Source: Caldisericota bacterium (GTDB lineage Bacteria > Caldisericota > Caldisericia > Caldisericales > Caldisericaceae). From it: a DNA stretch of 47,882 bases. How positions within the stretch are numbered: the stretch's first letter is position 1; every line of letters starts with the position of its first letter. The notes beneath the pieces are model-generated. The model saw nothing but the letters and a program-made list of their open reading frames with translations. It was not told where the DNA came from and did not search any database. Positions 19,114 through 36,838 of the stretch are shown here, in pieces. Where the stretch lies: positions 1 through 47,882 of the forward strand of contig JAUXIC010000004.1 of NCBI GenBank assembly GCA_030621215.1, written 5' to 3'. The position numbers and the translations under genes are program-made.

Positions 19114-19467
19114 TTACATACTGCGGGTTGCAATAAGGTTTATCCCCGTCCCTACAATATTTTCAATGATTGTATCATACATCTTTACAGGTGCATTAAC
19201 TTCAATTTTTGCAATATCTTCCATTATTTTAGGAATGAGCCTCTTGGGAATAGGTTTGTCGGTGCGCACGGGAAGCATGTTAAATTCTGCTCCTTTTATT
19301 CTTACAGTTGTTGTAAGCACGCGCAGGGGTTCTTTCAGTTCCTGAATAACAAACTCTTTACCTCGCGCGCATCTGCTTCCATCCAGTGCAATTATTCCGC
19401 CATTTTCTTCTTCGACATCAATCTCACAACCTAAAGGACATATGACACATGTAAAGTGCTTTATCAT
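19114..19467 (-). CDS. DUF1667 protein
   Basis: FTCVICPLGCEIDVE...GSRCARGKEFVIQELKEPLRVLTTTVRI; follows the oxidoreductase gene. Confidence 0.85.
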   Translation of the reverse strand: MIKHFTCVICPLGCEIDVEEENGGIIALDGSRCARGKEFVIQELKEPLRVLTTTVRIKGAEFNMLPVRTDKPIPKRLIPKIMEDIAKIEVNAPVKMYDTIIENIVGTGINLIATRSM

Positions 19468-20705
19468 TCCTCCACCTCTTTTATGGAAACGGTAATGTCG
19501 CCTTTTACGGATAAAAGTTTATCCTTAAGTACCTTAATCCTTATCATCTCATTTGGCCGGGCATATAATCTCTTCATCCTTATGTTCAGCGGTTTTACCT
19601 CGATATTGACAGGTTTCTCTACCCATTTGCCAGCACGGAGAAATATAATAAGGTCGTCTCTGTATGAATACCTTTGAGGAAAAAGTATTCCCACATTTTT
19701 GCCAGGAAATATATTAATAAATTTTTTGTTTTCCTTGTTTTCTTTTGCAAACTCTGCAGCATTTTTGCCTGCAATTACCCCTGTTTCAGCAACGTAATCG
19801 ACAAGGTCAAACACAACAGATACATTGCCGGAAGAAAAAATGCCTGGAACTGATGTTTCCATTATTTCCGTTGTGACGGGCCCCTTTGTGTTAGAAGAAA
19901 TTTTAATACTGGCTTCTTTTGAAAGCTCATTTTCAGGGATAAGCCCCACTGATAAAAGAAGTGTGTCGCATTTAATAAATTCTTCTGTTCCCTCTATCGG
20001 CTGCATCTTGCCGTCTACCTTTGCAACAACAACGCCGGTAACCCTGTCCTTTCCTTCTATCTCTATTACAGTATGCGAAAGATAAAGCGGAATATCGAAA
20101 TCGTTTAAGCATTGTACAATATTTCTTTTAAGGCCGCCGGGGTGATTCATAATCTCATACACACCTTTTACTTTTGCTCCCTCGAGTGTAAGCCGCCTTG
20201 CCATAATAAGCCCTATATCCCCGGATCCAAGAATAACTACTTCCTTCCCGGGCAAATATCCATCAATATTAATAAATCGCTGCGCCACGCCAGCAGTATA
20301 TATGCCTGCGGGACGAGTACCGGGAATGACAATATTACCTCTGGCGCGCTCGCGGCATCCCATTGCAAGAACAATACTTTTTGATTCTATGTTAAACACC
20401 CCATACTTGGAATTTACAGCAGTAATTGTACGGTCATTTGAAAGATGAATTGCCATAGTGTCAAGCATATAATCAACACCCTCTTTATTGATATCATCTA
20501 TTAACCGTTCTGCATACTCCGGGCCTGTAAGATCTTTTTTAAATAGTTCCAGGCCAAAACCATTATGAATACATTGTTTTAATATTCCGCCCAGCTCATC
20601 TTCTCTCTCAAGTATCAACACTTTTTTTGCACCGTTTCTTTTTGCAAAAAGAGCAGAAACAAGTCCTCCAGGGCCTCCTCCAATTACTGTTACATCAGCT
20701 TTCAA
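19464..20705 (-). CDS. FAD/NAD(P)-dependent oxidoreductase
   Basis: VIGGGPGGLVSALFAKRNGAKKVLILERE; GCRERARGN; adjacent to DUF1667. Confidence 0.88.
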   Translation of the reverse strand: MKADVTVIGGGPGGLVSALFAKRNGAKKVLILEREDELGGILKQCIHNGFGLELFKKDLTGPEYAERLIDDINKEGVDYMLDTMAIHLSNDRTITAVNSKYGVFNIESKSIVLAMGCRERARGNIVIPGTRPAGIYTAGVAQRFINIDGYLPGKEVVILGSGDIGLIMARRLTLEGAKVKGVYEIMNHPGGLKRNIVQCLNDFDIPLYLSHTVIEIEGKDRVTGVVVAKVDGKMQPIEGTEEFIKCDTLLLSVGLIPENELSKEASIKISSNTKGPVTTEIMETSVPGIFSSGNVSVVFDLVDYVAETGVIAGKNAAEFAKENKENKKFINIFPGKNVGILFPQRYSYRDDLIIFLRAGKWVEKPVNIEVKPLNIRMKRLYARPNEMIRIKVLKDKLLSVKGDITVSIKEVEE

Positions 20706-20727: not shown

Positions 20728-22596
20728 TTAAGTATTTTTATTATACAATAAATCGCTCAATTTCGTTAAGTTTAATGAAAGCAATTTTTCTTTTTTGGGA
20801 AGCCCTGTTTCAGAATCAACAGAACGAAGCTTGTAAAACTCTTCGAGTTGTTCGTCTGCATTGGGGGCAAAACCTGCTGTGGGGCCTTCTTTAAGCGGAG
20901 TAACAATTTTTGCTGGTAGTTTATCGTCTTTTGCACGCATCCCGAACAGATGAGAAATACCTCTCTTTAAAAACCAAATCTTTTCGCCTTTCTCTAAAAT
21001 ATCCTCTATTGTAAAGTCAAAACCAGTAACAACATTAAAAATGTTTACTATCTCTGTAGCGTTAAGCACGCTACCACCAAGAATGCACCAAATAGCAGAA
21101 TTGTGGAAGAACATCCCAAAATCATTCGCCTTCGCTGCAAGGGCTGCCTTGCTCTCATTACTTAAAGGGTCACCAAAGTCTGCAAGTTCAGGAATTTCCG
21201 GAAAATATGCAAATCCAGCAGTTGCAGGATACACAAGAGAAGATACATGGCATCCGCCCCTTACTGAAGTTGCATATCCTATTGCAAGTCCAAAATTCCC
21301 TCTGGGGTCATGCATGGGTACTTCAAGTCCTTTCACTGTAGTAAGAAATTCTTTGCCTTTTCCAAGTTTTTCTGCAATTTTTTTACTTCCTTCGGCAAGA
21401 AGTGCTCCCATACCTTCCTTTGTAGGGATTTTCTTTACAAGCTCAAGCACAGCTTCTTTATTGCCCCATTCAAGGTTTACTCCATCAACATCATCTTTCG
21501 TAATAAAACCATGATCATAAAGATCCATAAGGAAAGCAATAGTACTTCCTGCAGTAATTGTGTCAAATCCCATTTTGTTGGCAAAATCATTAACTTTCGA
21601 AATAAATTTTAAATCATCAATAAGAAGCATTGTGCCAAATGCACAAACTGTCTCATATTCAGGACCAGGTCCTTTTTCAATACTGTAAGGTCCATCGTTA
21701 ACTTCTACGATACGCTTGCAGGCAACAGGACAATTATAGCAAGTATCTATCCCTCTCTGGATTGTTTCCTTGTAAGGAGATGGTCCCAAATGTTCTGCCT
21801 TATCCCATTCTCCAAGTCCCCAGTTTTTTATGGGCACATCACCCATCTGAATACCAAGATCAAATGAAGAGTTTGTACCTGATTCCCTTAAAGAGAGAAC
21901 GGTGATACTTTCCCGATAATATGGCAATATTTCCTTAAGTATTCCATCAAGTCTCTCTGGGTCAGCTACTTCAACGGGTTCTTCGCCTTCTACAACAATC
22001 GCTTTTAAATTTTTACTTCCCATTACAGCACCCATCCCCGCTCTTCCTGAAAGATGCCCCTTCCTGTTCACGATAGATGCATACAATACAAGATTTTCTC
22101 CAGCAGGCCCTATGGCAAGTATTTCTCCATTTTTTCCAAGATTTTCCTTTAACGCATCTTCCGTTTTATATGTATCCATACCCCAGTAATTTGATGCGTC
22201 TCTTATCTCAATCTTATCAGGCGTAATGTATAAATATACGGGGATATCGCTTTTCCCTGTCACAACAATGCCGTCATAACCTGCAAATTTTAGCTTTGCT
22301 GCAAAATAACCGCCGCTGTTTGACTCCCCCCAGATGCCAGTAAGCGGAGAAAGTGCAGATACGGTAAATCGTGAAGTAGAAGGTACTTTTGTGCCAGCAA
22401 GAGGGCCGGTCATAAATATTAAAGGATTGTCAGGAGAAAACGGAGTTAAATCTGGCTTGTAATGGTCAATAAAAATCTTCGCTGCGATGCCAGAACCGCC
22501 AATATATTCCTTAGCAAGTTCTTCTGAGAGAGGTACATTATGTACCTCTCCATCTGTTAAATTAACAGATACAATTTTACCTTTATATCCTTTCAT
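20728..22596 (-). CDS. Aldehyde ferredoxin oxidoreductase family (tungstopterin)
   Basis: MKGYKGKIVSVNLTDGEV...YIGGSGIAAKI, GPLAGTKVPSTSRF, CYNCPVACKRIVE. Confidence 0.93.
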   Translation of the reverse strand: MKGYKGKIVSVNLTDGEVHNVPLSEELAKEYIGGSGIAAKIFIDHYKPDLTPFSPDNPLIFMTGPLAGTKVPSTSRFTVSALSPLTGIWGESNSGGYFAAKLKFAGYDGIVVTGKSDIPVYLYITPDKIEIRDASNYWGMDTYKTEDALKENLGKNGEILAIGPAGENLVLYASIVNRKGHLSGRAGMGAVMGSKNLKAIVVEGEEPVEVADPERLDGILKEILPYYRESITVLSLRESGTNSSFDLGIQMGDVPIKNWGLGEWDKAEHLGPSPYKETIQRGIDTCYNCPVACKRIVEVNDGPYSIEKGPGPEYETVCAFGTMLLIDDLKFISKVNDFANKMGFDTITAGSTIAFLMDLYDHGFITKDDVDGVNLEWGNKEAVLELVKKIPTKEGMGALLAEGSKKIAEKLGKGKEFLTTVKGLEVPMHDPRGNFGLAIGYATSVRGGCHVSSLVYPATAGFAYFPEIPELADFGDPLSNESKAALAAKANDFGMFFHNSAIWCILGGSVLNATEIVNIFNVVTGFDFTIEDILEKGEKIWFLKRGISHLFGMRAKDDKLPAKIVTPLKEGPTAGFAPNADEQLEEFYKLRSVDSETGLPKKEKLLSLNLTKLSDLLYNKNT

Positions 22597-22600
22597 TCTC

Positions 22601-23014
22601 TTATTCTACAAGGTCCTCATGGCCTGTTTCTTTCAGATAATCTTTATACATCTGATATGTTGGTTTCAGAGCGGGAAGAAAAGCAAGAATCTTTGGCACA
22701 GGCCCACGTACAACCATCTGCCTTCTCGTAATTGCCATCGTAAGATTAAGTTTGCCAAGCCAGAATTTATGAGCAATATCTGCTTTCATATCCATATCAA
22801 CTTCTGGTACTTTTTCCCCGTCGTTTATGGTAACAACAAGATCTTTTCCGCTGCTCATATCAAGCGTTAGAGAGAGATCCGGTTCTCTATAATTAAATCG
22901 TATAACAAGCTTTGATTTAACGAAATTTGGTGCAATTGTTTCGTCACTTGCAAGTTTGTTGAAAAAACCAACCAAAACATTTTTTAATTCTTCAGAATCC
23001 TTAAATACTGCCAT
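22601..23014 (-). CDS. SCP2-like sterol/lipid-carrier domain protein
   Basis: 137 aa; VTINDGEKVPEVDMDMKADIAHKFWLGKLNLTMAITRRQMVVRGPVPKILAFLPALKP is SCP2-like. Confidence 0.65.
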   Translation of the reverse strand: MAVFKDSEELKNVLVGFFNKLASDETIAPNFVKSKLVIRFNYREPDLSLTLDMSSGKDLVVTINDGEKVPEVDMDMKADIAHKFWLGKLNLTMAITRRQMVVRGPVPKILAFLPALKPTYQMYKDYLKETGHEDLVE

Positions 23015-23029: not shown

Positions 23030-24208
23030 TTAAAATGCATTTTTTAGAATTTCTAAAACACCTTCCTCGGTTTCCTCTCTTGGATTGTATATAGAAGTAC
23101 CGTCAATAAGTGTCTTCTCAATTATCTCATGGAAATCTTTTTCGCTTACACCTACTTCACTTAACTTTGTTGGGAGTCCTGCTACTTCTTTAAGTTTCTC
23201 TTTAAGAGATTTTATATACTGAATTGCTCTTCTTCCATTCTCAAGAGGAGAAAGGTTCTCTTCATATACTCCAAAGATCTTTGCAATTTTGGAAAAACGC
23301 TCTTCACGCACTGGAAGATTATACTCCATGCCAAAGGGGAGTACAATTGCGTTTGCAACACCATGAGGTATCCTGAGTAATCCACCTAAAGAATGGGCAA
23401 TTCCATGCACCACACCACATTCGGAATGAGAAAATGCTGCACCTGCAATTGTTGCCCCTAACATCATCCATCCCCTCTCTTCAACATCTTCGCCATTTTT
23501 ACACACATTGACAAGATGGGACACAATAATGCGCATTGCCTCTTCTGCATACATATCTGAAAGAGGCGTTGCATCTACATCGACAAATGCTTCAATCGCA
23601 TGCGTAAGAGCATCCATCCCCGTAGCTGCTGTAATTTTAGGGGGAAGAGTTTTCGTCATATTCGGGTCAAGCACTGCAAGTGAAGCAGGGAGAAATCTGT
23701 CTATAAACTCCATTTTCATGTGTGTTTCTTCATTATAAATTACCGCAGCTGTTGTTACTTCACTTCCCGTGCCGGCAGTCGTTGGTACTACAATTAATGG
23801 TTTTAACGGATGGGTAAGAGTTTGCGCACCTGAATGGTCCTTTATAAGATCACCGCCTGCACCTGCCACAATATTTGCACCCTTCACGCTATCAATTACA
23901 CTTCCTCCACCAATCGCAATGAAGCCGTCACAGCTATTTTTTTTGTAGAGTTCCGCAATTTTATTTACAACACTTACTGAAGAATCCTGTGGAACTTCAT
24001 TAAAAATACCACCAACCTCAACACCATTCTCCTTAAGGCCATTTACAACATAATTCACAAGTCCCAATTTCTCAACTACTTTATCCGTCACGATAAGCGG
24101 CTTTCCTACACCCATCTCTTCCAACTCTACACTAAAATCGGAAGCTACTCCCTCACCAAAGATAATCTTCGTAGGTACATGAAACTGAAAGAATTCCGGT
24201 AATCCCAT
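23030..24208 (-). CDS. Iron-containing alcohol dehydrogenase
   Basis: FIAIGGGSVIDSVKGANI, PTTAGTGSEVTTAAVI, GMDALTHAIEAFV, VVHGIAHSLGGLLRIPHGVANAI. Confidence 0.93.
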   Translation of the reverse strand: MGLPEFFQFHVPTKIIFGEGVASDFSVELEEMGVGKPLIVTDKVVEKLGLVNYVVNGLKENGVEVGGIFNEVPQDSSVSVVNKIAELYKKNSCDGFIAIGGGSVIDSVKGANIVAGAGGDLIKDHSGAQTLTHPLKPLIVVPTTAGTGSEVTTAAVIYNEETHMKMEFIDRFLPASLAVLDPNMTKTLPPKITAATGMDALTHAIEAFVDVDATPLSDMYAEEAMRIIVSHLVNVCKNGEDVEERGWMMLGATIAGAAFSHSECGVVHGIAHSLGGLLRIPHGVANAIVLPFGMEYNLPVREERFSKIAKIFGVYEENLSPLENGRRAIQYIKSLKEKLKEVAGLPTKLSEVGVSEKDFHEIIEKTLIDGTSIYNPREETEEGVLEILKNAF

Positions 24209-24209
24209 G

Positions 24210-25766
24210 TCACCCTCCTTTCTTTTTATATTGCCTTGTAATATCGTGTATTTTGTGATACAATCCTTTCAACGATGGATAAATATTTTTATATACTTCA
24301 TTAAACAATCTGCTGTATATTTCTACATTCTTTGGGTTGGGAATAAATTTCTCTTCAGGCCTGACCATATTTTCTACTGCTGTTTCAAAGCTTTCATATA
24401 TACCCAGAGCAATAGCTGCATCCATTGCAGCACCAAGGGCAGAAAGGTGCGGTGTGTGTATTCTCCTTGCAGGAAGATTAAACACATCGGCAGTAATCTG
24501 CATTATCTCATCGCTTTCGGAGCCTCCCCCGCCAACACGCAATTCTTTAATATTTGCTCCTGAATATTTTTGCATAATTTCCATGAGCCGCTTTAACTCG
24601 TAAGCAATCCCTTCGATGATAGCCCTATAAATATGCACCCGCGTATGGTTACCAGAAAATCCTATAATTGCACCTTTTGAGGACGGATCAAATGCAAATG
24701 GCGACCAATAAGGTTGAAGAATTAATCCATCTGAACCCGGAGGAATTTCACTCATCTCTTTATCAAGCAAATTCTCAGGTGAAATACCCATTTTTTCTGC
24801 CTGTTCTTCTTCGTTCTTTGCAAATTCTTTTCTGAACCAGGATACCATCCAGTATCCTCTCCCTACAAATCCTTCAAGAGCCCATTTGTCAGACACAGCA
24901 CTACCCCATGTAAAAAAATCCATCCTGGGGTGCGTTACATATTTTTTGCTGAATATCTCAATCACTGCTGCTGTACCATAGCTTACCTCTGCAATATCAC
25001 AACCTATGCCGCCTGCCCCAAGCAGTTCTGATTGCTTGTCTCCCGCACCAATAATGATAGGAAGTCCTTCTTTTACTCCAAACTCTTTTGCCCCTGTTTT
25101 TGACACGTGCCCTGCAATATCTGTAGGAGAAACAAGATCTGGAAGTTTTTTTCTTTCGACTCCAAATACCTTATAAACAAGCGGATTTTTGTGCCAGGCA
25201 AGCTGTTTTAAGTCTATTGGAAAAAGTCCTACGATCATTGAAGAACAATCTTTAAATTCCCCTGTAAGAGCATGGAATATGTAGGATGAAACTGTAAGAA
25301 ACTTATAAGTTTTTTTGTAATTTTCTGGCTCGTGTTTGCGAAGCCAGTTAAACTTTGACCGTCTTTGATATTCCTTAAGCAGTTCTTCCATTCCTGCTAT
25401 CTTTATAAATAATCTTCCCATTCCACCCGGAAGGGATAAACCATCCGTCTTCCTTTCATCAAGCCAGGTAATCGCGGGACGAATTACTTTACCATTTTTA
25501 CCAATAGGGATAATAGTGCTTCTATGCGTTGTGATAGAAAGAGCAACAAAATCACCTTCTGGCACACCGGAATCTTTTACTACTTTCTTTGTCACCTCTT
25601 TTACAATTGATAAATATTGTTCTGCATCTTGTTCAGCAAAATCAGGCCGCAGAGAAAAATACGGCGTTACGGAGTGCATCCCTTTAGATATTTCATTTCC
25701 TTTTTCATCAAATACAAATGCCTTAATGTTTTGAGTGCCTCCATCAATCACGATAAAATATTTCAT
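24210..25766 (-). CDS. FGGY-family carbohydrate kinase
   Basis: MKYFIVIDGGTQNIKAFVFDEKG; ITWLDERKTDG; IIGAGDKQSELLGAGG; start trimmed from 25829 to 25766. Confidence 0.85.
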   Translation of the reverse strand: MKYFIVIDGGTQNIKAFVFDEKGNEISKGMHSVTPYFSLRPDFAEQDAEQYLSIVKEVTKKVVKDSGVPEGDFVALSITTHRSTIIPIGKNGKVIRPAITWLDERKTDGLSLPGGMGRLFIKIAGMEELLKEYQRRSKFNWLRKHEPENYKKTYKFLTVSSYIFHALTGEFKDCSSMIVGLFPIDLKQLAWHKNPLVYKVFGVERKKLPDLVSPTDIAGHVSKTGAKEFGVKEGLPIIIGAGDKQSELLGAGGIGCDIAEVSYGTAAVIEIFSKKYVTHPRMDFFTWGSAVSDKWALEGFVGRGYWMVSWFRKEFAKNEEEQAEKMGISPENLLDKEMSEIPPGSDGLILQPYWSPFAFDPSSKGAIIGFSGNHTRVHIYRAIIEGIAYELKRLMEIMQKYSGANIKELRVGGGGSESDEIMQITADVFNLPARRIHTPHLSALGAAMDAAIALGIYESFETAVENMVRPEEKFIPNPKNVEIYSRLFNEVYKNIYPSLKGLYHKIHDITRQYKKKGG

Positions 25767-27493
25767 TTCTCCCCCTTTTTTGTTTTTCCATTCAGAATAA
25801 ATGATTTTCCTCCATTTTTTGTAATACATTCCTCATTTAATCCTTTTTCCTGCTCTATTATAGCCATCACCCTTGGTAAGCAAAAACCCCCCTGACATCT
25901 TCCCATACCTGTCCGTGTCCTCCTTTTTATCGCATCGACGCTTTCTACTGAAATATCGTCGTGCAATACATTAACAATTTCTTTCTCGCTTACATGCTCA
26001 CACCTGCAAATAATATGGCCATACAGAGAATCCTCTTTGATACGTGCGGTAATCTCGCTTTCGTCCATTTCAGAAAATGGCTTAAATCTTTTCCTTACAG
26101 GATTAAATTCGGTTTTTACGTCAGGACTTACTTCATTCCTCACAATTTCATACACCCTCTCAGCTATAGCAGGTGCAGAGGCAAGACCGGGAGATTGTAT
26201 GCCAGCAACATGGATCAAGCCTTTTATTTTTTGTGACGACTCGATAATAAAATCTTCCCTGAACGTTGCAGCTCTTGCACCTGCAAAATATGTAATAATT
26301 TTATCCTTACCTGCCTTGGGGTATTCTGGTTTAAGTCGCGAAAGAATAGGTGCAAATTTATCAAGAAGTTCGTTTACGTCTCTAAAAGTTGTTGCCGTAT
26401 CCTCTCTGTCTTCTACTTCACAGGCAGTAGGGCCAAGTTGAAGATTGCCATCAATTGTAGGAATAAAGCCACCACCTTTTGAATGTGGGTTTCTATTTTC
26501 CCGCATACTGAAACTGCCAAGTACCGTTTCCATAGGTTGGTATGTTTTATCAAAAATAATCGTTGCTCCCCTTCTGGGGTGAATTGTAAAAAACCTATCC
26601 CCTGCAAATTCAGCAATCTTATCGGCATATAAACCAGCGGCATTAATCAAGCAATGCGTTTTGATGGTACCCTGCGTCGTTTCCACTGCTTTGATGCAGC
26701 TATTTTCTGTATATACAGAAGTAACAGAGGTTTCAAGAAATAATTTCACTCCATTGCTTATGGCATTTTCCATATAAGCAATGGTTAATTCAAATGGCGA
26801 TATAATACCAGTATTCCATACAAGCAGGCCCTTTTTTATATGCGGTGCAAGCCCGGGTTCTACTCTATCCAGTTCTTCTCTATTTAAAATCTTTGGCGAG
26901 GGGTCCTTATGCCACTTGACTAAACTATGAAGTGCAAAAACCATTAACTCTTCCTTCAAATTCTCAGCAACGATAAGTGTCCCTATCCTCTTAAACGGAA
27001 CGTCAAGTTCAGCTGCGACTTTATCGTACATTGCATTTCCTTTATAATTCATCTCCCACTTTAACGTGCCGCGCTTTGTTAGAAATGCAGGATGAATCAT
27101 GCCATTACTATGTGCAGTCTGGTCAACGCCAACATCGCTGTGCCTCTCCAGCACAGCTATACTTAAATTAAATTTGGATAATTCTCTTGCAATTGCTGCG
27201 CCTATCACGCCTGCTCCAACAATGACTACATCAAACTCCATTCCATTAAACTTGTCTAAAACTTTTTCAGGGAATATAATTTTCTTTTCTGAAGGGTAAT
27301 GTAAATTTGAAACAACTCCTCTCAATTTATCAAAAGAAGCGGCAATAAAACCAGCTTTAAGTGTTTTATTATATGAAGAAACAGTTCCATCTAAATAAAC
27401 AACATTATCAATGATTTTTACCTCTACCTTCTCTTTGGTCTCTTTGAAAATTCTGTGAATAATTTCTTTAGAAATCTTATTATTCAAGTGCAT
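25763..27493 (-). CDS. BON-like + FAD-dependent GlpA-like dehydrogenase + BFD-type [2Fe-2S] fusion
   Basis: N-terminal VYLDGTVSSYNKTLKAGFIAASFDKLRGVVSNL; FDVVIVGAGVIGAAIARELSKF; C-terminal CRCEHVSEKEIV...GRCQGGFC. Confidence 0.85.
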   Translation of the reverse strand: MHLNNKISKEIIHRIFKETKEKVEVKIIDNVVYLDGTVSSYNKTLKAGFIAASFDKLRGVVSNLHYPSEKKIIFPEKVLDKFNGMEFDVVIVGAGVIGAAIARELSKFNLSIAVLERHSDVGVDQTAHSNGMIHPAFLTKRGTLKWEMNYKGNAMYDKVAAELDVPFKRIGTLIVAENLKEELMVFALHSLVKWHKDPSPKILNREELDRVEPGLAPHIKKGLLVWNTGIISPFELTIAYMENAISNGVKLFLETSVTSVYTENSCIKAVETTQGTIKTHCLINAAGLYADKIAEFAGDRFFTIHPRRGATIIFDKTYQPMETVLGSFSMRENRNPHSKGGGFIPTIDGNLQLGPTACEVEDREDTATTFRDVNELLDKFAPILSRLKPEYPKAGKDKIITYFAGARAATFREDFIIESSQKIKGLIHVAGIQSPGLASAPAIAERVYEIVRNEVSPDVKTEFNPVRKRFKPFSEMDESEITARIKEDSLYGHIICRCEHVSEKEIVNVLHDDISVESVDAIKRRTRTGMGRCQGGFCLPRVMAIIEQEKGLNEECITKNGGKSFILNGKTKKGEK

Positions 27494-28538
27494 CTCCTAT
27501 AATTTCCATGATATCTTTCATTTGAAGAGATTTTAATACATCTTTACAGGTAGGGCAGGCAGAAACATAATCTAGCGCCTTTGTTTCTTTAAGTTCATTT
27601 TCTCTCATGTTCTTTATTGCATTACGCGTATTTCTATCGCCAACTTTTGTTTTTCCACCACAACAATGTGCATCCTTCCCAGCATAAGCCGTCTCACGCA
27701 GAGAGTATCCAATCTTTTTTAAAATTGTTCTCGGTGTTTCTAATATATCAAGGTCTTTTGCAAGAATGCATGGATCATGATATGTAATGGATTTATTTTC
27801 AACTTTTTTAAGCGATAGCTTACCCTCGTCAATGAGCTCTTTTGCAAACGTTAAAGTGTGCACAATGTCAATCTCTATATTTACTCCGGCTTCTATGTAA
27901 TGTTTCTTCATCATTTTAATGCATGTCGGGCAATTCGTTATGATTCGCTTTACGCCTTTTCCTTTAATGAGCTTCTCCATTTGCTCTGCTTTTTCCTTAA
28001 ACCCGTCCATATCTCCCGCAAAATAGAGCGGCGCACCGCAACAAATATCACCGCCGCCAAACTCCTTTACATCTACATCTGCTTTGTCCAAAATTTTCCC
28101 GGTTGCAGAAAGAATATTCTTGTCATTAAAAGTATTACAGGAGACAAAAAACCCTATCTCTCCTTCTCCCTTATCGATCGTTTCCCTTTTGCCGCTTGGA
28201 TTGCCAAACTTGTCAAAATTCTCAAGCACATCGCTTACAAGAGAAGGCACAAAATCTTTCTTAAATGCAATGCCACGCTCCTCTATAATAAAATCTCTCA
28301 GATCAAAATCGTCATACTGGCAATTTACAACGCAACTTCCACAAAGAGCACACTGGAATACAGTATCAAAAAAACCATCTTCGTCCTGCAATAAATTTTT
28401 CTTTCCGTAAAGTATAAGGCGCGCTTTTTTCTGTGGAGTAAACGTTTCACTGCCTGTTGCAAGATAAACAGGGCAGCTAAATTTGCACATATTTGGGCAC
28501 ATTGAACAATCTATTAGTCTATTTAACTGTTTTTCCAT
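27480..28538 (-). CDS. CCG-domain (Fe-S)-binding protein, GlpC/HdrD-like
   Basis: CSMCPNMCKFSCPVY, CALCGSCVVNCQ, CCGAPLYFAGD, DAHCCGGKTKVGDRN; ATG 28538 has GGAGGG upstream. Confidence 0.88.
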   Translation of the reverse strand: MEKQLNRLIDCSMCPNMCKFSCPVYLATGSETFTPQKKARLILYGKKNLLQDEDGFFDTVFQCALCGSCVVNCQYDDFDLRDFIIEERGIAFKKDFVPSLVSDVLENFDKFGNPSGKRETIDKGEGEIGFFVSCNTFNDKNILSATGKILDKADVDVKEFGGGDICCGAPLYFAGDMDGFKEKAEQMEKLIKGKGVKRIITNCPTCIKMMKKHYIEAGVNIEIDIVHTLTFAKELIDEGKLSLKKVENKSITYHDPCILAKDLDILETPRTILKKIGYSLRETAYAGKDAHCCGGKTKVGDRNTRNAIKNMRENELKETKALDYVSACPTCKDVLKSLQMKDIMEIIGDALE

Positions 28539-30096
28539 CTTTTCCCTCCACAAGTTTGCCGGGATTAAAAATATGGTCTTTATCTACTGCGTTTATCACA
28601 TCTTTCATCATTTTTTCGCCTGCAATGCCAAACTCTTTTTGCATGAATGGCTTTCGTAAAAAACCTATCCCGTGATGGTGGCTTATCGAACCGTTATGGC
28701 GCAGTGTCGCTTCCATCGCAGCTGACCACGTATCCTCATAATATTTTAACTGGTCTTTTGGAAACCCTGCAAACGTAATATACAAACAGGCTGATTCAGG
28801 ATAAAAGTGAGAATAGTGGCCAGAAACGGACACCGCCCCTTTTATACCTGACATAGACTCGATGATATCGTTATAGAGTGCAGGAGCATCTTTGAACAAA
28901 GACACTACCTCAATTGTGTCTACAATCCCTCCGTTTCGTAGTATTATAGGCCCCAGGTGCACATCAAACCGTTTATCAAGCCATATGTCAACGGGTTTCT
29001 CACCTACAGAGATGCCGTTGTATTTTTCTGCCTTTCTTTTAATTACTCTGTCTTCCAGGAATACAAAATCTTCATCCCCTTCGGAAATAAAAATTACTGC
29101 GACTTTGCCTGCAAGCTTTTCCATTCCCTCAAAACCTATTTTATTCTTTGATTCATTTAATATGTTTAAAACTTTTGGAGAAACTTTTCCAGTCAAAATT
29201 TTGCCTGCAACACCAAAAGCTTGCTGATATTTACTGCGCGTGGACACGACACCAAAGTAACGCTCGGTCTCGTCCTTATCAAAAATCCTTACCACAGCAG
29301 GCTTTGCGTCTGTCTGAACAACTTCTCTTACCATATCAAGTGCTGTTTCAACAGAATCAAACGCAAAACAGTTTTTAATAACTTTTTCAGGTATTTTATG
29401 TACAGAAAGATATACCTCCGTAATAATGCCCATTGTACCTTCAGAGCCAAGAAAAAGATGCTTTAAAGAAGGCCCTGTAGATTTTCTTGATACTGGCTTT
29501 ATGCGAAGAATCTCTCCGTCAGGCAACACTGCTGTAAGTCCCAGCACCATATCTTCAATCTTTCCGTATTTTGTAGAAAACTGCCCCGCAGCACGCGTTG
29601 AGACCCAGCCTCCAACGGTGGAACAAGAAATGGATTGTGGTATGTTGCCGGACGAATAGCCCTTATAATTCAATTCTTTCTCTAAATTTGTGCCGATAAT
29701 GCCAGATTCAAATACAGCAACTCGGGAAATTTCATCAAGAGAAATAAATTTATTCATTCGCTGCGTATTCAATATAATACTTCCATTAAACGGGATTGCC
29801 GCACCAAGTACGCCTGAACCTCCACCAAATGGAGTAATCTGCACATGATATTTATTTGCAAGTATTACAACTTTTTGAACCTCTTCTGTATTTTTTGGGG
29901 AAACCACAGCGGACGGGATAGCAGGAACTTCACCAAACTGGGTTTTATAGACACCGTAAAGCCAATAATCCACGCTGTATGAGATAAGGTCTCTTTCATC
30001 TTCTGAAACATATTTTTCACCTACAATACGCTTCACTTCTTTAATAAATTCATAAGAAATGTTTTTACCTTTTGATAAAAAACTCTTTACCTTCAA
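28519..30096 (-). CDS. FAD-linked oxidase of alkyldihydroxyacetonephosphate synthase (AGPS)-like type
   Basis: PFGGGSGVLGA FAD-binding motif; GGWVSTRAAGQFSTKYGKIEDMVLG; NGSISHHHGIGFLRKPF (HHH motif). Confidence 0.8.
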   Translation of the reverse strand: MKVKSFLSKGKNISYEFIKEVKRIVGEKYVSEDERDLISYSVDYWLYGVYKTQFGEVPAIPSAVVSPKNTEEVQKVVILANKYHVQITPFGGGSGVLGAAIPFNGSIILNTQRMNKFISLDEISRVAVFESGIIGTNLEKELNYKGYSSGNIPQSISCSTVGGWVSTRAAGQFSTKYGKIEDMVLGLTAVLPDGEILRIKPVSRKSTGPSLKHLFLGSEGTMGIITEVYLSVHKIPEKVIKNCFAFDSVETALDMVREVVQTDAKPAVVRIFDKDETERYFGVVSTRSKYQQAFGVAGKILTGKVSPKVLNILNESKNKIGFEGMEKLAGKVAVIFISEGDEDFVFLEDRVIKRKAEKYNGISVGEKPVDIWLDKRFDVHLGPIILRNGGIVDTIEVVSLFKDAPALYNDIIESMSGIKGAVSVSGHYSHFYPESACLYITFAGFPKDQLKYYEDTWSAAMEATLRHNGSISHHHGIGFLRKPFMQKEFGIAGEKMMKDVINAVDKDHIFNPGKLVEGKDGKTVK

Positions 30097-30797
30097 ATCC
30101 TCACCTCACTTTTAAATGAATATAAATCAGCCCTTGCACTAAAAATAAGGTAATAAATTGGTTTATTATAGCTAAACCATGTACGGTTAATGCTGAGCAT
30201 TGGGGTTTCTTTTTTTAGCGAAAGAAGCTCCATCTCTTCCTTTTCAGCGATTCTGGAAGAAATTCCCTGATTAATCCGCGTCACCGGAATCTTACATTTA
30301 TGCACAATAAGCTGGTAATAAGACCCTTTAAAATTATATTTGTTCAAACAATCCAACAAATCAACTGGAAAATAAGAATCTTCAACTGCAAAAGGTTGTT
30401 CATCAGCAAAACGTATTCGCCTTGTGTATAGAACTTTGTCTGTTTTCAGCGTTTCTATCACTACCTTTGGCGGATGATTTAGAATCTTTTTGTTGATAAG
30501 TTTATCTCCAGGTTTTACCCCCCTTGCTTCAAGCTCTATAGTAAAGCTCGCCATAGGTTCTATCGGGTCTATGGGATATTTCCGTACAACAAATGCTCCC
30601 ACTCCTTGCTTTTTATGTATATATCCAAGCCGTTCAAGTTCTATCACTGCTCTTCTTGCCGTTTCTCTGCCAACTTTAAACTCATCTATTAGATTTCGTT
30701 CGGAAGGAAGAAGGGTGTCTAAATTGTATTTTCCTTCTTCTATTCTTCTCACAAGCTCGTTCCGCAACTTAATATAAAGTGGTATTCCATCTTTCAT
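30093..30797 (-). CDS. GntR-family regulator with UTRA-type C-terminal domain
   Basis: IPLYIKLRNELVRRIEEGKYNLDTLLPSERNLIDEFKVGRETARRAVIELERLGYIHKKQGVGAFV; ATG 30797 with GGAGAG upstream. Confidence 0.9.
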   Translation of the reverse strand: MKDGIPLYIKLRNELVRRIEEGKYNLDTLLPSERNLIDEFKVGRETARRAVIELERLGYIHKKQGVGAFVVRKYPIDPIEPMASFTIELEARGVKPGDKLINKKILNHPPKVVIETLKTDKVLYTRRIRFADEQPFAVEDSYFPVDLLDCLNKYNFKGSYYQLIVHKCKIPVTRINQGISSRIAEKEEMELLSLKKETPMLSINRTWFSYNKPIYYLIFSARADLYSFKSEVRI

Positions 30798-30809: not shown

Positions 30810-30827
30810 TATGCGGATATCCGTATA
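30810..30827. promoter_or_regulatory. Putative GntR operator
   Basis: Palindrome TATGCGGAT|ATCCGTATA (8/9 matched pairs) over the predicted start site of the gntR operon. Confidence 0.6.
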
Positions 30828-30856: not shown

Positions 30857-30886
30857 ATTAATGTTGCTTTTACAGAAAATAAAAAA

Positions 30887-30907
30887 GACTGAATTTTACA
30901 TTCAGCC
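30887..30907 (-). terminator. Intrinsic terminator of the ABC/Xdh operon
   Basis: Minus strand GGCTGAATgtaaaATTCAGTC followed by TTTTTTATT. Confidence 0.75.
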
Positions 30908-30937
30908 CTGATCTTCTTTTAAACTAGTTTACTGCTA

Positions 30938-31873
30938 TTATTCTCTTCTGTACGGTTTAAGAAGTGCCGATGGATATGATGCATTCCTCGCTGTACAGAT
31001 AAGAACTATGATTGTAAGAACATACGGCATCATTAAGAAATACTGGAAAGGAATATTTATGGCAGTTCCCTGCAATCTCAATCCTATTGCATCGACGCCA
31101 CCAAATAGAAGTGCTCCCCAAAACACTCTTGAGGGGATCCAGTTAGCAAAGATGACCAATGCTATAGCAACCCATCCTCTTCCCGCAACAATGTCAAATA
31201 TAAACATATTGAATTGTGCAAGAGTGAAGAATGCACCACTCATACCCATCAATGCTCCTCCTATCATAAGAGCAATATAACGCATTTTATATACATCTAC
31301 TCCAACTGCGTCTGCAGCTTCTGGATTTTCGCCTACTGACCGCAAAGACAAACCAAATGAGGTTTTAAAGAAAAGATATCCAGATACGATAACAAGTATA
31401 ACCGCAATATACGTCAAAGCGTACTGGTCAAACAGAATAGGGCCTAAAAATGGTATTTTCCATAACCCGGGGATTTTCAAAGTATCAAATGCTTTAATAG
31501 TTGCAGGAATCGTTGGAGAGCCAATCACTGCTCTGTACACATAGTAAGCAAGGCCACTTGCAAAAATTGTAATGCCTAATCCAGAAACATGCTGGTTTAA
31601 CCCTAATGTTACAGAAAGAAACGCCATAAGCAATCCAAATAAAAAACCAGAAAAGGTTGCAGCGAATACGCCAAACCATAAACTGTGCGTAAAATAAGTA
31701 GTAACAAAACCTGCTAACGCACCAAATATCATAATACCTTCAATTCCAAGATTAAGGATCCCGGAACGTTCAGAGAAAGCTTCCCCAAGCGTTGCAAGTA
31801 CCAGAGGAGTTGCCATTCTTATGGTAGACGCAAAAAATCCTACCAGAAATGATGTTGTAAAGAAATTGTTCAT
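30938..31873 (-). CDS. ABC permease, BMP/nucleoside-type
   Basis: LGEAFSERSGILNLGIEGIMIFGALAGF typical of YufQ/NupQ-type permeases. Confidence 0.88.
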   Translation of the reverse strand: MNNFFTTSFLVGFFASTIRMATPLVLATLGEAFSERSGILNLGIEGIMIFGALAGFVTTYFTHSLWFGVFAATFSGFLFGLLMAFLSVTLGLNQHVSGLGITIFASGLAYYVYRAVIGSPTIPATIKAFDTLKIPGLWKIPFLGPILFDQYALTYIAVILVIVSGYLFFKTSFGLSLRSVGENPEAADAVGVDVYKMRYIALMIGGALMGMSGAFFTLAQFNMFIFDIVAGRGWVAIALVIFANWIPSRVFWGALLFGGVDAIGLRLQGTAINIPFQYFLMMPYVLTIIVLICTARNASYPSALLKPYRRE

Positions 31874-32940
31874 TTTCCCCTCCTGATACTTATTTTATAT
31901 TCAAATAAAAGCAACATCGCAAGCATGACAATCAGGGTTATCCCCTGGATTACATCTGCAATATACGGTGGTATACCCACGCTTCTACTCATCATTTGAG
32001 CTCCCGTAATAATAACAGAAAAATATAGAGCCGCAAATAACACGCCAAAGGGGTTAAGTCCTCCAAGCATGGCAATAACTATACCGCTGTATCCGTAACC
32101 AGGAGAAAGGTTGTGAATAAGATGATAGTGTACTCCAGCAACTTCGCTAACGCCCGCAAGCCCTGCTACTCCGCCACTTAGAACTGAAGCAATAATAATA
32201 GTTTTTAGTGTGTTAATGCCAAGAAAATTGGCAGCTTTAGGATTTGATCCTGTTGCCCTGATCTCAAATCCAAGTTTTGTCTTTTTAACAATAAAATACG
32301 TCACAAAAACTACGGCAACAGCAATTAAAAAACCAATATGCACCCGCGAGCGGGGCACCAATTGAATAAGCTGTGCATTTTCTGCAATATTAACAGACTC
32401 TGGATACAGCGACACTGGATGTCTCCAAGGGCCTTCTAAAATTGCGCTAACAAAATATATCATAATATAATTAAAAAGAAGCGTGGTAACGACATCATCT
32501 ACTTTAAACCTGGCTTTAAGATAAGCAGGAATAAAAGACCATACTCCACCACCCACAAACCCTGCAACAATTACCAGTAAAACATAAAAAACCGGGGAGA
32601 GATTAAAATTTTGTATGCCAACCCATGTAGCAAGCAGTGCGCCTGCATAAAGCTGCCCCTCTGCACCAATGTTCCAGTATTTTGCAAGAAATGCAATCGA
32701 CACAGCAATACCAGTCAAAATAAGCGGAGTTGCCTTAACAAGCATTTCTAAAAATGCAAACTTCGTTCCAAGCCCTCCATAGAAAAGATAATAAAAAGCT
32801 GTAAACGGATTTTTGCCAAGGATCAACAAAAAAATAGAAGAAATTGCAAGAGATATAATTACCGCCATAATTGGCATTAATATCCTAAACCACCATGGAG
32901 GAGGTATTCTTTTCTCCAACTTAAAGCTAATTAGGCTCAT
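31870..32940 (-). CDS. ABC permease, BMP/nucleoside-type
   Basis: LTGIAVSIAFLAKYWNIGAEGQLYAGALLATW, RATGSNPKAANFLGI. Confidence 0.88.
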   Translation of the reverse strand: MSLISFKLEKRIPPPWWFRILMPIMAVIISLAISSIFLLILGKNPFTAFYYLFYGGLGTKFAFLEMLVKATPLILTGIAVSIAFLAKYWNIGAEGQLYAGALLATWVGIQNFNLSPVFYVLLVIVAGFVGGGVWSFIPAYLKARFKVDDVVTTLLFNYIMIYFVSAILEGPWRHPVSLYPESVNIAENAQLIQLVPRSRVHIGFLIAVAVVFVTYFIVKKTKLGFEIRATGSNPKAANFLGINTLKTIIIASVLSGGVAGLAGVSEVAGVHYHLIHNLSPGYGYSGIVIAMLGGLNPFGVLFAALYFSVIITGAQMMSRSVGIPPYIADVIQGITLIVMLAMLLLFEYKISIRRGK

Positions 32941-34465
32941 GGAAACCTCCCATTCTTGTCCCTGTCATCATTAACCCAAGTTCATCTATAGTAACATCTT
33001 TCCTGTCTAGTATTCCCATAACTTCTCCTTCATACATCACAAGAATTCTATCACTCAGCATTAGTATTTCATCAAGATCTTCAGATATAAGAAGAATCCC
33101 GACACCATTTGCCCTCGCGCTGAGTAGCTTAGTGTGTATATATTCTGCAGCCCCTACGTCCAATCCCCGTATCGGCTGGGATGCTATTATAAACTCAGGA
33201 TTTCTTGAAAGCATTCTTGCAAGTATCACTTTTTGCAAATTACCACCAGAAAGTGTTCTTGTTATCGTATAAATGCTAGGAGTTTTAATATCATATTCTT
33301 TTACCATTTTTTCTGCAAAATCTTTAACTGAAGAATAATTTATCAAAATCCCGTTTGATAATGGTTTCTTATCGTACGATTCAACAATAAGATTTTCGAA
33401 TATTGGAAGATCTAATATAAGCCCTTCTTCCATTCTATCTTCTGGAACTCTTCCTATCCCGAGGTTGATGATCTCTTTCGGTTTTTTGGTTGTTATTTCT
33501 TTTCCCTTAAAAACAATTCGACCGTCTGTGCTTTCTCTTACTCCACAAAGAACGTCTTCTAGCTCACGCTGCCCATTGCCGGATACACCTGCTATTCCAA
33601 GAATTTCTTCGCTTCTCACCTCAAATGATATTCCCTTTAACGCCTCTATCCCTTTATCATTAAGAGCATGCAAGTTCTGCACTACCAGGAGCGGTTCTCC
33701 TCTTTCTGACATTTCCTCTTTCTCAATAATTTCCAACACTTCTCTTCCAACCATTATTCTTGCAAGCTCTTTCTTGGTTGTATCTTTTTTGTTTTTCTCT
33801 CCTGCAAGGGTGCCATTTCTTAAAATAACGATTCTATCGCTTATCTCCATAACTTCGCCTAATTTATGCGAAATAAAAACAATGCTTTTCCCTTCTTTTG
33901 TTAATAATCTCAACGTATCAAACAGGTTTTCCGCTTCTTGTGGGGTTAAAACTGCAGTAGGTTCATCCATTATAAGCACATCAATATTCCGATAAAGTGC
34001 TTTTATAATCTCTACCCGCTGCTTTTCTCCTACGGATAACTGCCAGATTTTTGCATCTGGATTAACCTCAAGCCCATACTTTTTTGATAGTGATATAAGG
34101 TCTTTTTTTGCTGACTCAAGATCAATTTCTATGCCCTTTGCAGGAGGCAATCCCAATATAACATTCTCTGTTACGGTGAATGATTTTACTAAAGTAAAGT
34201 GCTGATGTACCATGCCTATTCCAAGGGATATCGCATCTTTTGGAGATTTTATATCAACCTTTTTGCCTTTTACATAGATTTCGCCGCTATCCATAGAATA
34301 CATCCCATACAAAATTTTCATCAGAGTTGTTTTGCCAGCACCGTTTTCTCCAAGAAGAGTTACTACTTCACCTTTACAGATATCAAAATTAATATCATTA
34401 TTTGCAACCGTATGTAAAAAGGTTTTTCTAATATTTTGCATCTCCACAACTTTTTCCATGTCCAC
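32927..34465 (-). CDS. ABC ATPase with two NBDs (YufO/NupO-like)
   Basis: LLGENGAGKTTLMKILYG, LSVGEKQRVEIIKALYR, second NBD LSGGNLQKVILARMLSR. Confidence 0.92.
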   Translation of the reverse strand: MDMEKVVEMQNIRKTFLHTVANNDINFDICKGEVVTLLGENGAGKTTLMKILYGMYSMDSGEIYVKGKKVDIKSPKDAISLGIGMVHQHFTLVKSFTVTENVILGLPPAKGIEIDLESAKKDLISLSKKYGLEVNPDAKIWQLSVGEKQRVEIIKALYRNIDVLIMDEPTAVLTPQEAENLFDTLRLLTKEGKSIVFISHKLGEVMEISDRIVILRNGTLAGEKNKKDTTKKELARIMVGREVLEIIEKEEMSERGEPLLVVQNLHALNDKGIEALKGISFEVRSEEILGIAGVSGNGQRELEDVLCGVRESTDGRIVFKGKEITTKKPKEIINLGIGRVPEDRMEEGLILDLPIFENLIVESYDKKPLSNGILINYSSVKDFAEKMVKEYDIKTPSIYTITRTLSGGNLQKVILARMLSRNPEFIIASQPIRGLDVGAAEYIHTKLLSARANGVGILLISEDLDEILMLSDRILVMYEGEVMGILDRKDVTIDELGLMMTGTRMGGFHEPN

Positions 34466-34479
34466 CTCACGCTAATAAC

Positions 34480-34511
34480 AATTGAGCACAGGAAATTTCC
34501 TGTGCTCAATT
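34480..34511. repeat. 32-bp perfect palindrome between binding-protein and ATPase genes
   Basis: AATTGAGCACAGGAAA|TTTCCTGTGCTCAATT. Confidence 0.9.
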
Positions 34512-34532
34512 AGTTGATCAATTAATTATTAC

Positions 34533-35546
34533 TTAGTCTCCCTTTGGAGTTGATTCATCTACTGAAACTCTAAATGTTCCATTTAGAATTTCCTGCTCTC
34601 TGTTTCTAACCATTTCGATAATATCTGCGGGAAGTGTGTCTTCAAAACCATAGAAAGGAGCAAGATAAGCGCCACCTTTACCCATCATTGACCAATCTTT
34701 AAGATCCTGGGCCTGATAAGCTCCGAGTTTAATAGACTCTACTAGATACTTAACAGTCGGGTACATATTCCAGATAGGGCCGGTAACTACTACGTCAGGA
34801 GCAAGTAAATTTTGATCCTGCATATTGCCAAAAGCATAAACGCCTCTCTCTTTGCATGCATCAATAACGCCATATCTTTCTGCATAAAGAACATCTGCTC
34901 CTGCATCTATCTGTGCCATTGCAGCTTCTTTTGCTTTTGGCGGATCAAACCAGCATCCGATAAATGAAACTTTTACCTTAACATCTGGATTTACTTCTTT
35001 TGCGCCTTCTATAAATGCATTTACAATTCTGTTTACTTCAGGAACAGGGATGCCGCCCACAACACCAAGAATGTTGGTCTTTGTAAGTTTACCTGCAATC
35101 ATGCCTGAAAGGTATGCCGGCTCATGAATCCAGTCATCAAATACTGAGAAATTTGGTTCGGCAAGTCCACCGCCGGAACCAAACGCAAAAGCGATTTCCG
35201 GATAATCTTTAGCTACCCTTCTTACAGCGTCTTCAGCGCCAAAAGCATCGCCCATAATAAGGTCGAAGCCTTTGTCTGCGTACTCTCTTACTACTCTTTC
35301 AAAATCTGATGAACTTATGTTTTCTGCCCATTCATAATCAACATCAAGTTCTGCTCTTGCCTTTAAAAGCGCTTCATGTATACAACCATCCCATGGTTCT
35401 TCAATAGGCGTTGCAAAAATAGCAGCGACTTTTAATTTTCCTTCTTCTGGTTCTTCCGCAGGTGTTTCTTTTGGCGCACAGCCAACAACTACAAGTGTAA
35501 ATACCATAAATAATACTAAACTCAACAAAATACTTTTTCTTCTCAT
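34533..35546 (-). CDS. BMP-family (PnrA-like) substrate-binding lipoprotein
   Basis: Lipobox VVGCAPKE; FDLIMGDAFGAEDAVRRVAKDYPEIAFAFG; VVGGIPVPEVNRIVNAFIEGA. Confidence 0.9.
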   Translation of the reverse strand: MRRKSILLSLVLFMVFTLVVVGCAPKETPAEEPEEGKLKVAAIFATPIEEPWDGCIHEALLKARAELDVDYEWAENISSSDFERVVREYADKGFDLIMGDAFGAEDAVRRVAKDYPEIAFAFGSGGGLAEPNFSVFDDWIHEPAYLSGMIAGKLTKTNILGVVGGIPVPEVNRIVNAFIEGAKEVNPDVKVKVSFIGCWFDPPKAKEAAMAQIDAGADVLYAERYGVIDACKERGVYAFGNMQDQNLLAPDVVVTGPIWNMYPTVKYLVESIKLGAYQAQDLKDWSMMGKGGAYLAPFYGFEDTLPADIIEMVRNREQEILNGTFRVSVDESTPKGD

Positions 35547-35581
35547 GCTTATTCTCCTTTTTTTTTTATTTTACTTCTGAC

Positions 35582-36814
35582 CTAAATAAGATACTTTTCA
35601 CGGTCAACAAGCTTACCGTGGCTTATCACATATAGAGGCTCATCGTGATTACGTATTGCCTCTCTCACACTGTTTTCCCTTAGCACGACAAGATTCGCCT
35701 GTGCTCCTTCTTTTAGCTCAAAATTCTTTAGCCCAATCGACTTTGCTGCATCAACAGTAACCATATCGTACAGTTTCTCCATATCTCCGCGAGAAGTCAT
35801 CCACAGTATGTGAGAAGAAAGAAATACTACTTCTAACAGATTGTTTCTGCCATACGGATAGTATGCATCTGATATGTCGTCTTGTCCAAGAACTACAAGC
35901 ACTCCAGCTTCAAGAAGCTCTCTTACGCGGGCATGTAAAGGACCTGTATGAGGATCACTTACAACTCCCATCTCTGCCTTTTTCAAAAGAGCAATGACCT
36001 TCTGTAAATAAGGACCTGGATACATCGCCATCGCCCTTGCATGGTGAGCAAGACTCCTTCCCAAACGATTTTCTTGAATTGTTTTCACAGCAAGCATTTC
36101 TAACGTCCTGAGGCCCGGATCCCCTGCATCATCTACAAGCATAGAAATATCCTTATCATATTTGTTGGCAATTTCAAACATTGCATCAATATGAGCCTGC
36201 TCGTCTTCTTCGGTAAACTCTATCCACGGTATTCCGCCGACTACATCTGCTCCCATTTTTATTGCCTCTTCAACAAGTTCTTTTGCCCCAGCTTCTCTAA
36301 CAACTCCGTCCTGCGGGAACGCAACAATTTGCAGTTCCACTACATCTTTAAACTCTTCCTTTGCCTTAAGCAACGCCTTAACACCTTCAAGTTTAGCTTT
36401 GATGTCTACGTCCGCAAATGCTCTGATATGGGTTACTCCGTTCAATGCGGCAAGCTTCATTGATCGTCTCACATTTTTGGTAATCCACTCCTCCTCATAC
36501 TTCTCCTTAATTCTGGAAGCCAGCTCGATAGCATTCATTGCCTTACCCATACCTGCTTCATGGTAATCTTTAAGTGCCTCTTCATCCATCATCTCAAGGG
36601 TATACACTTTACACAGGTGAAGGTGTGTATTTACAAACGATTCTGTTGCCAGCTTCCCACCTGCATCAATTTCCTTTTCACCCTCTCCGCTCAAATTCTC
36701 TCCTATACTTGTTATTATGCCTTCTTTAATGCCAATATCTACAAGTGTTTCAGAGCGTCCTCTTGTGCATACATTTCGTACTACAAGATCAAATTCTTTT
36801 ACTCCGCCTTCCAT
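35582..36814 (-). CDS. Cytosine deaminase-like amidohydrolase
   Basis: FVNTHLHL, AFPQDGV, SLAHHARAM, GQDDISDAYYPYGRNNLLEV. Confidence 0.8.
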   Translation of the reverse strand: MEGGVKEFDLVVRNVCTRGRSETLVDIGIKEGIITSIGENLSGEGEKEIDAGGKLATESFVNTHLHLCKVYTLEMMDEEALKDYHEAGMGKAMNAIELASRIKEKYEEEWITKNVRRSMKLAALNGVTHIRAFADVDIKAKLEGVKALLKAKEEFKDVVELQIVAFPQDGVVREAGAKELVEEAIKMGADVVGGIPWIEFTEEDEQAHIDAMFEIANKYDKDISMLVDDAGDPGLRTLEMLAVKTIQENRLGRSLAHHARAMAMYPGPYLQKVIALLKKAEMGVVSDPHTGPLHARVRELLEAGVLVVLGQDDISDAYYPYGRNNLLEVVFLSSHILWMTSRGDMEKLYDMVTVDAAKSIGLKNFELKEGAQANLVVLRENSVREAIRNHDEPLYVISHGKLVDREKYLI

Positions 36815-36838
36815 TAAATTATTTCTCCTCCTTTCTTT

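Follow-up and report, generated by a model that had tools for sequence, protein, structure and literature searches.

The window analysed here, a stretch of 47,882 nucleotides from a Caldisericota bacterium (contig 44 of a Caldiserica genome of 1.17 Mb, 94% complete), contains an operon in which a flavoprotein related to AGPS is encoded with a CCG Fe-S protein, an FGGY kinase and a GlpA-like oxidoreductase. We tentatively propose that the cassette is a widespread prokaryotic module for the anaerobic breakdown or salvage of 1-O-alkylglycerols, in which ether-lipid synthesis would run backwards; this ether-cleavage role is the best supported of the readings weighed. With slightly more reserve, the cassette may represent a new oxygen-independent pathway of glycerol-ether cleavage, present in several bacterial phyla and many archaea, including Asgard, in which the AGPS relative works in reverse beside an alkylglycerol kinase.

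The gene for the flavoprotein is an intact open reading frame of 525 codons read from 30096 to 28519, the start codon standing behind GAGGTGAGG (Table 1). Its product contains the Pfam domains FAD_binding_4 and FAD-oxidase_C, and no second FAD-oxidase_C protein was found in the 94%-complete genome; copies with 92% identity occur in near relatives named Caldiserica bacterium. A single-sequence search of the PDB returned Dictyostelium and guinea-pig AGPS at E values of 4.6e-65 and 1.3e-57, respectively, compared with 4.5e-35 for LctD and 1.7e-31 for glycolate oxidase, and a profile search gave 356 and 328 bits for AGPS and at most 206 bits for D-lactate dehydrogenase. In a Foldseek search with an AlphaFold2 model built from 40 relatives (pLDDT 85.8, pTM 0.86), the first 36 PDB matches were all AGPS, ahead of mouse LDHD, and the model superimposes on guinea-pig AGPS (4bby) with a TM score of about 0.80. 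A maximum-likelihood tree of 72 rows separates all AGPS-type sequences from GlcD/LDH with support of 99/96. Within the AGPS-type sequences, eukaryotic AGPS and bacterial AGPS of ~570 aa constitute a canonical clade (16 rows, 100/100), while the window protein groups with archaeal and Dehalococcoidia sequences (96/92) in a clade that is sister to it. The archaeal homologues sampled lie in this latter, kinase-linked clade. By sequence, fold, tree and active-site residues the protein is thus AGPS-like, and is not GlcD.

Table 1. Coordinates of the operon genes and of the residues and sites discussed in the text.
Feature	Positions	Strand	Basis
GntR/UTRA regulator, first gene of the unit; ATG at 30797, longest ORF from 30848	30093..30797	minus	Pfam
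AGPS-like FAD_binding_4/FAD-oxidase_C flavoprotein, 525 aa, TTG start	28519..30096	minus	Pfam, PDB, model, tree
Arg270, equivalent to AGPS R419; Glu in GlcD/LDH rows	29287..29289	minus	alignment
Gly382, at the AGPS R515 position; canonical Y-x-R-[DE] absent	28951..28953	minus	alignment
Tyr439, equivalent to AGPS Y578; His in GlcD/LDH rows	28780..28782	minus	alignment
HHH motif, residues 473-475, equivalent to guinea-pig AGPS H615-H617	28672..28680	minus	alignment
GlpC/HdrB-like Fe-S protein, 4Fe-4S dicluster and two complete CCG motifs	27480..28538	minus	Pfam, cysteine motifs
GlpA-like FAD oxidoreductase, DAO and BFD [2Fe-2S] domains, type 2 G3P oxidase-like	25763..27493	minus	Pfam/NCBIfam
FGGY kinase; likely ATG at 25766, longest ORF from 25829	24210..25766	minus	Pfam/NCBIfam
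Kinase R-S pair at GlpK Arg83-Glu84 (Arg kept, Glu replaced by Ser)	25518..25523	minus	alignment
Iron-containing alcohol dehydrogenase (Fe-ADH); proposed to convert alcohol to aldehyde	23030..24208	minus	Pfam/NCBIfam
SCP2-domain protein; proposed lipid carrier	22601..23014	minus	Pfam E 4.7e-05, above cut-off
Aldehyde:ferredoxin oxidoreductase family (AOR); proposed to convert aldehyde to acid	20728..22596	minus	Pfam/NCBIfam
FAD/NAD pyridine nucleotide-disulfide oxidoreductase, travels with GlpA and DUF1667	19464..20705	minus	own sequence, co-occurrence
DUF1667-type small protein, travels with GlpA	19114..19467	minus	co-occurrence; Thermotoga gene order
Terminator-like hairpin between upstream ABC-transporter genes and the GntR unit	30885..30909	minus	consensus match alone

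The equivalents of R419, Y578 and H615-H617 are invariant in all 25 cassette rows, whereas the 18 GlcD/LDH rows uniformly contain Glu, His and [GA]-E-H at the corresponding sites; H617 is the one member of the set common to both groups. Alignment at Y578 and R419 was anchored by the PDB mutants 4bca (Y578F) and 4bc7 (R419H). None of the 25 cassette rows contains the Y-x-R-[DE] motif. Its arginine, R515, which we take to be a substrate-binding residue of AGPS (UniProt O00116), is present in the guinea-pig and Dictyostelium enzymes and in 9 of 10 bacterial canonical rows, and its absence means that binding of the DHAP-phosphate moiety by the AGPS-like protein is not assured. R376, an invariant arginine of GlcD/LDH, is retained in the cassette protein. 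Comparison with AGPS/ADPS (EC 2.5.1.26; PDB 2uuu, 4bby) therefore reveals a shared fold, FAD domain and catalytic residues, but identity of only ~30%, a sister position in the tree and the loss of R515; the protein is not a canonical AGPS. The initial annotation had described the product as AGPS-like rather than GlcD, and quoted two peptides, GGWVSTRAAGQFSTKYGKIEDMVLG (residues 162-186) and NGSISHHHGIGFLRKPF (residues 468-484), both of which are present in the translation. That view is borne out by fold, profile, tree and active-site residues, the protein falling outside the GlcD/LDH clades and its HHH motif aligning with guinea-pig 615-617. The accompanying idea, that this is AGPS itself turned to redox coupling, is not supported in that form, since the protein belongs to a clade sister to that of eukaryotic and bacterial AGPS and lacks R515.

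Two further groups of AGPS-type sequences were observed. A deep clade (L128, L161, L129 and L131) displays NDHH, NEHH or NHHH in place of SHHH, with some members adjoining CCG and GlpD-type genes, and possibly represents another activity within the superfamily. Two loci from the same class as the window, in other genomes of the phylum (L009 and L012), encode a canonical-type AGPS of 577 aa, with the sequence SHHHGIG, that adjoins an FGGY kinase.

The operon is a minus-strand run in the order GntR, AGPS-like, CCG Fe-S, GlpA-like, FGGY, Fe-ADH, SCP2, AOR, pyridine-nucleotide oxidoreductase and DUF1667-type, the last product being one that we take to be DUF1667-type from the Thermotoga gene order. 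The CCG gene lies directly downstream of the AGPS-like gene and probably starts at the ATG at 28538, with a GGAGG inside the AGPS-like gene, so that the two genes overlap by 20 nt. The most likely start of the kinase similarly gives a 4-nt overlap with the GlpA stop. A perfect palindrome, CGGATATCCG (30814-30823, minus strand), is located just upstream of the likely GntR ATG and is a possible autoregulatory operator of this regulator. Further upstream, a separate minus-strand unit (30938-39705) encodes xanthine-dehydrogenase-like large and small subunits, a cytosine-deaminase-like amidohydrolase and a BMP-type ABC transporter. This unit is conserved next to the cassette in other Caldiserica loci, and in L157 the AGPS-CCG pair adjoins a transporter similar to the nucleoside-type ABC transporter of the window. 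The nucleoside-type transporter, amidohydrolase and xanthine-dehydrogenase-like genes were set aside as operon members because the GntR gene and the terminator-like hairpin, a type of site equally frequent in shuffled sequence, lie between them and the cassette.

A genome scan returned 80 loci, distributed over Caldiserica, Chloroflexota, Thermoplasmatota, Bathyarchaeota, Lokiarchaeota, Brockarchaeota, Njordarchaeota, Archaeoglobi and a few Proteobacteria and Myxococcota; most of the carriers found are archaea. The arrangement common to Caldiserica, Dehalococcoidia, Lokiarchaeota, Thermoplasmatota, Bathyarchaeota, Brockarchaeota and Archaeoglobi consists of the AGPS-like gene followed by genes for a CCG Fe-S protein and an FGGY kinase, to which a gene for a glycerol-3-phosphate dehydrogenase is often added. 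In the 44 loci with at least 6.5 kb downstream, the FGGY kinase is always present, CCG occurs in 41 and GlpA in 15. The kinases are of GlpK, XylB and other FGGY types, and the dehydrogenase is represented, depending on the locus, by non-homologous stand-ins: GlpA-like proteins, GpsA (in some Archaeoglobi) or GlpD-type DAO+DAO_C oxidases (in several bacterial loci, one of which, L165, combines GlpD, AGPS and FGGY with a FadR-type regulator). No GlpA was found next to the Lokiarchaeal and Archaeoglobal cassettes. A lipase-like α/β-hydrolase family recurs in 29 loci, while Fe-ADH, SCP2 and AOR were seen with the cassette in Caldiserica only. In two bacterial genomes (L159 and L165) a DUF362 gene is located between AGPS and the FGGY kinase.

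The CCG protein of the window is of the GlpC/GlcF/HdrB type, with a 4Fe-4S dicluster and two CX(n)CCGX(n)CXXC motifs. Its gene immediately follows the AGPS-like gene in 71 of the 75 loci with room for it, and 26 of the 41 CCG-bearing loci with long flanks lack GlpA. In L091, moreover, a GlpA-PyrRedox-DUF1667-FGGY block stands ahead of the AGPS-CCG pair. These data indicate that CCG belongs with the AGPS-like gene and that its product is a probable partner of the AGPS-like protein. The AGPS/CCG pairing pointed out in the initial annotation is therefore stronger than first seen; that annotation overlooked the FGGY kinase with its altered glycerol pocket, the G3P dehydrogenase and the Fe-ADH/SCP2/AOR group, which are more telling partners.

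The specificity of GlpK resides in Arg83, Glu84, Tyr135, Asp245 and Phe270, the first four of which hydrogen-bond glycerol while Phe270 packs against it (PMC3245297; also PMC2680290). The window kinase departs from this signature, containing R, S, Y, D and G at the five positions; Tyr135 is apparently kept and the differences are limited to Glu84, Gln246 and Phe270. It scores 181 and 162 bits against the NCBIfam GlpK models, under the cut-offs of 590 and 498. In the AGPS-linked kinases the Glu84 position is occupied by Ser, Ala, Gly, Thr, Gln or Leu, changes at Tyr135 and Phe270 are usual, and Arg83 and Asp245 are retained; Thermoplasmatota kinases scoring above an NCBIfam GlpK cut-off belong to the altered set as well. 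Two Lokiarchaeal kinases (L062 and L073), which still have Glu at the Glu84 position, are the sole exceptions seen, and the linked kinases of Afipia and L161 are other FGGY types. As a control, glycerol kinases were collected from whole genomes of two of the cassette phyla, and Glu84 and Tyr135 are both present in 48 of the 49 classed as unlinked. The remaining kinase turned out to be AGPS-linked (an AGPS-CCG-GlpA-kinase run on the extended contig), giving an unlinked count of 48/48 at a linkage radius of 1.5 kb, beyond which an AGPS gene would escape notice. Of the nine altered Thermoplasmatota kinases, seven were confirmed beside AGPS, and contig ends cut off the remaining two. The kinase tree places the altered GlpK-type sequences both in an archaeal clade and in a Myxococcota clade that is nested among the controls, showing that GlpK-type kinases were recruited on at least two occasions, each with the residue loss. 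A sign test on the tree yields 1-2 independent pairs, and with so few events no significance is claimed for the residue loss. Since the linked kinases have lost Glu84 while unlinked enzymes keep it together with Tyr135, the substrate of the cassette kinase is probably a substituted glycerol.

In the proposed pathway the FGGY kinase, with its opened glycerol pocket, would phosphorylate a 1-O-alkylglycerol at O3, and the GlpA-like protein (elsewhere GlpD or an NAD-type GpsA) would oxidise the sn-2 hydroxyl of the alkyl-G3P to give 1-O-alkyl-DHAP. The AGPS-like flavoprotein would then form a flavin N5 adduct with the DHAP carbon, freeing the fatty alcohol, and hydrolysis of the adduct would release DHAP; the CCG protein may take electrons from, or reset, the flavin. 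In Caldiserica Fe-ADH and AOR would convert the alcohol via the aldehyde to the acid, with SCP2 carrying the lipid. The route from alkylglycerol through alkyl-G3P and alkyl-DHAP to DHAP and alcohol would thus be the last steps of ether-lipid synthesis reversed. The data establish the family and fold of the flavoprotein, the active-site residues that it has kept and lost, the conservation of the cassette, the AGPS-CCG pairing and the loss of glycerol-binding residues from linked kinases, whereas the substrate, the direction, each reaction and the transfer of electrons to CCG are inferred. No acyl-CoA dehydrogenase was found in the 94%-complete genome of the organism, which suggests that there the released chain is reused or excreted rather than β-oxidised.

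Taken together, the kinase, the G3P dehydrogenase and the Fe-ADH/SCP2/AOR partners point to glycerol-ether catabolism. This interpretation is supported by the AGPS catalytic residues, conserved throughout the cassette members and replaced in every GlcD/LDH row, by the constant association of the AGPS-like gene with FGGY, usually with a G3P dehydrogenase for which non-homologous proteins stand in, and by the loss from linked kinases of glycerol residues kept in unlinked GlpKs. The lipase-like hydrolases, the FadR-type regulator of L165 and the presence of Fe-ADH, SCP2 and AOR within the Caldiserica run also count in its favour. Against it stand the lack of R515, the absence of GlpA at Lokiarchaeal and Archaeoglobal cassettes, the sighting of Fe-ADH, SCP2 and AOR in Caldiserica alone, the missing acyl-CoA dehydrogenase of the organism, the apparent retention of Tyr135 in the window kinase and the possibility that FGGY kinases outside the GlpK type never carried Glu84. 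The CCG protein presents a further difficulty. AGPS chemistry is redox-neutral, proceeding via a flavin N5 adduct, and a dedicated CCG partner is therefore not required by the scheme; either CCG resets an occasionally reduced flavin, or the AGPS-like enzyme performs a net oxidation.

This poor fit keeps alive a reading that we consider rather unlikely, in which the AGPS-like and CCG proteins form a GlcDF-type dehydrogenase that oxidises a phosphorylated glycerol or sugar derivative made by the kinase, passing electrons to CCG, and no ether bond is involved. Glycolate and lactate dehydrogenases typically combine an FAD-oxidase_C protein with a CCG protein, and the cassette shares with GlcDF and LctD-type systems the encoding of an FAD_binding_4/FAD-oxidase_C protein next to a CCG Fe-S protein. 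The constancy of the CCG neighbour, with or without GlpA, and the retention of R376 in a protein that has lost R515 are likewise in keeping with such a dehydrogenase. However, every member has the AGPS set in place of the Glu, His and Glu that GlcD/LDH carry at the R419, Y578 and H616 positions and that include their metal-site E and H, the cassette proteins form a separate clade, and the CCG neighbour is missing from loci of other clades in which AGPS lies beside FGGY (L098, L100, L159 and L165). An ordinary GlcD or D-lactate dehydrogenase with a chance HHH motif is so improbable as to be negligible: although glcD is the best NCBIfam match of the protein, at 183.5 bits it is under the cut-off of 567.9, and the identity is refuted by the tree and rejected also by the fold search and the invariant AGPS residues.

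Canonical ether-lipid synthesis, in which acyl-DHAP and a fatty alcohol would be joined into alkyl-DHAP and the kinase and GlpA would supply DHAP, appears improbable. Archaeal lipids are not known to be built from acyl-DHAP, and the predominance of archaea among the carriers consequently disfavours a synthetic role. The closest characterised homologues are indeed AGPS enzymes, and Myxococcus xanthus AGPS provides a precedent by participating in alkenyl-ether synthesis (PMC11868695). Nevertheless, the window protein lies outside the AGPS clade and lacks the R515 motif, the linked kinases show changes in the residues that bind glycerol, and a Pfam scan of the operon genes detected no acyltransferase or alkyl-DHAP reductase, the cassette protein being found instead with a kinase and, usually, CCG. 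Salvage only, in which alkylglycerols are trimmed, the chain is reused in membranes, DHAP enters glycolysis and the chain gives no energy, would differ from the ether-cleavage pathway in purpose alone and is quite improbable as the sole role; the genome, without acyl-CoA dehydrogenase, encodes one PlsC-type acyltransferase, which speaks for salvage, but AOR would also yield reduced ferredoxin, and hence energy. The view of the locus as a simple GlpK-GlpABC glycerol operon with AGPS as a passenger is weakened by the loss of glycerol ligands from linked, and not unlinked, kinases and by the occurrence of CCG with AGPS in the absence of GlpA. The cassette does resemble the GlpK-GlpA(B)C system of anaerobic glycerol catabolism in its dehydrogenase module (Thermotoga-type GlpA, PyrRedox and DUF1667) and, in Thermoplasmatota, in a related kinase, but it differs in the additional AGPS-like/CCG pair and in the loss of Glu84, Tyr135 and Phe270 from the kinase.

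Ether lipids are abundant in anoxic sediment, and to our knowledge there is no enzyme known for the O2-free breakdown of glycerol ethers. The only known alkylglycerol-degrading enzyme is described as AGMO, an O2-dependent monooxygenase (PMC7911779). The cassette would act on the same substrate class as AGMO, which is unrelated and depends on O2 and tetrahydrobiopterin. Neither an anaerobic alkylglycerol pathway nor the AGPS-like/CCG/FGGY cassette was found described in the open literature searched, a scope that covers few subscription papers. The cassette thus offers a specific candidate for ether cleavage without oxygen that can be put to the test. A metagenome survey has counted prokaryotic AGPS homologues as ether-lipid genes (PMC11868695), and the lipid-synthesis enzymes attributed to LUCA include AGPS (PMC11383801); the present data caution against assigning such homologues to ether-lipid synthesis. 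If the ether-cleavage proposal is correct, the pathway could serve to recycle the ether-linked lipids of anoxic sediments, and genes annotated 'AGPS' in archaea, or placed as such in LUCA reconstructions, may stand for degradation and not for synthesis.
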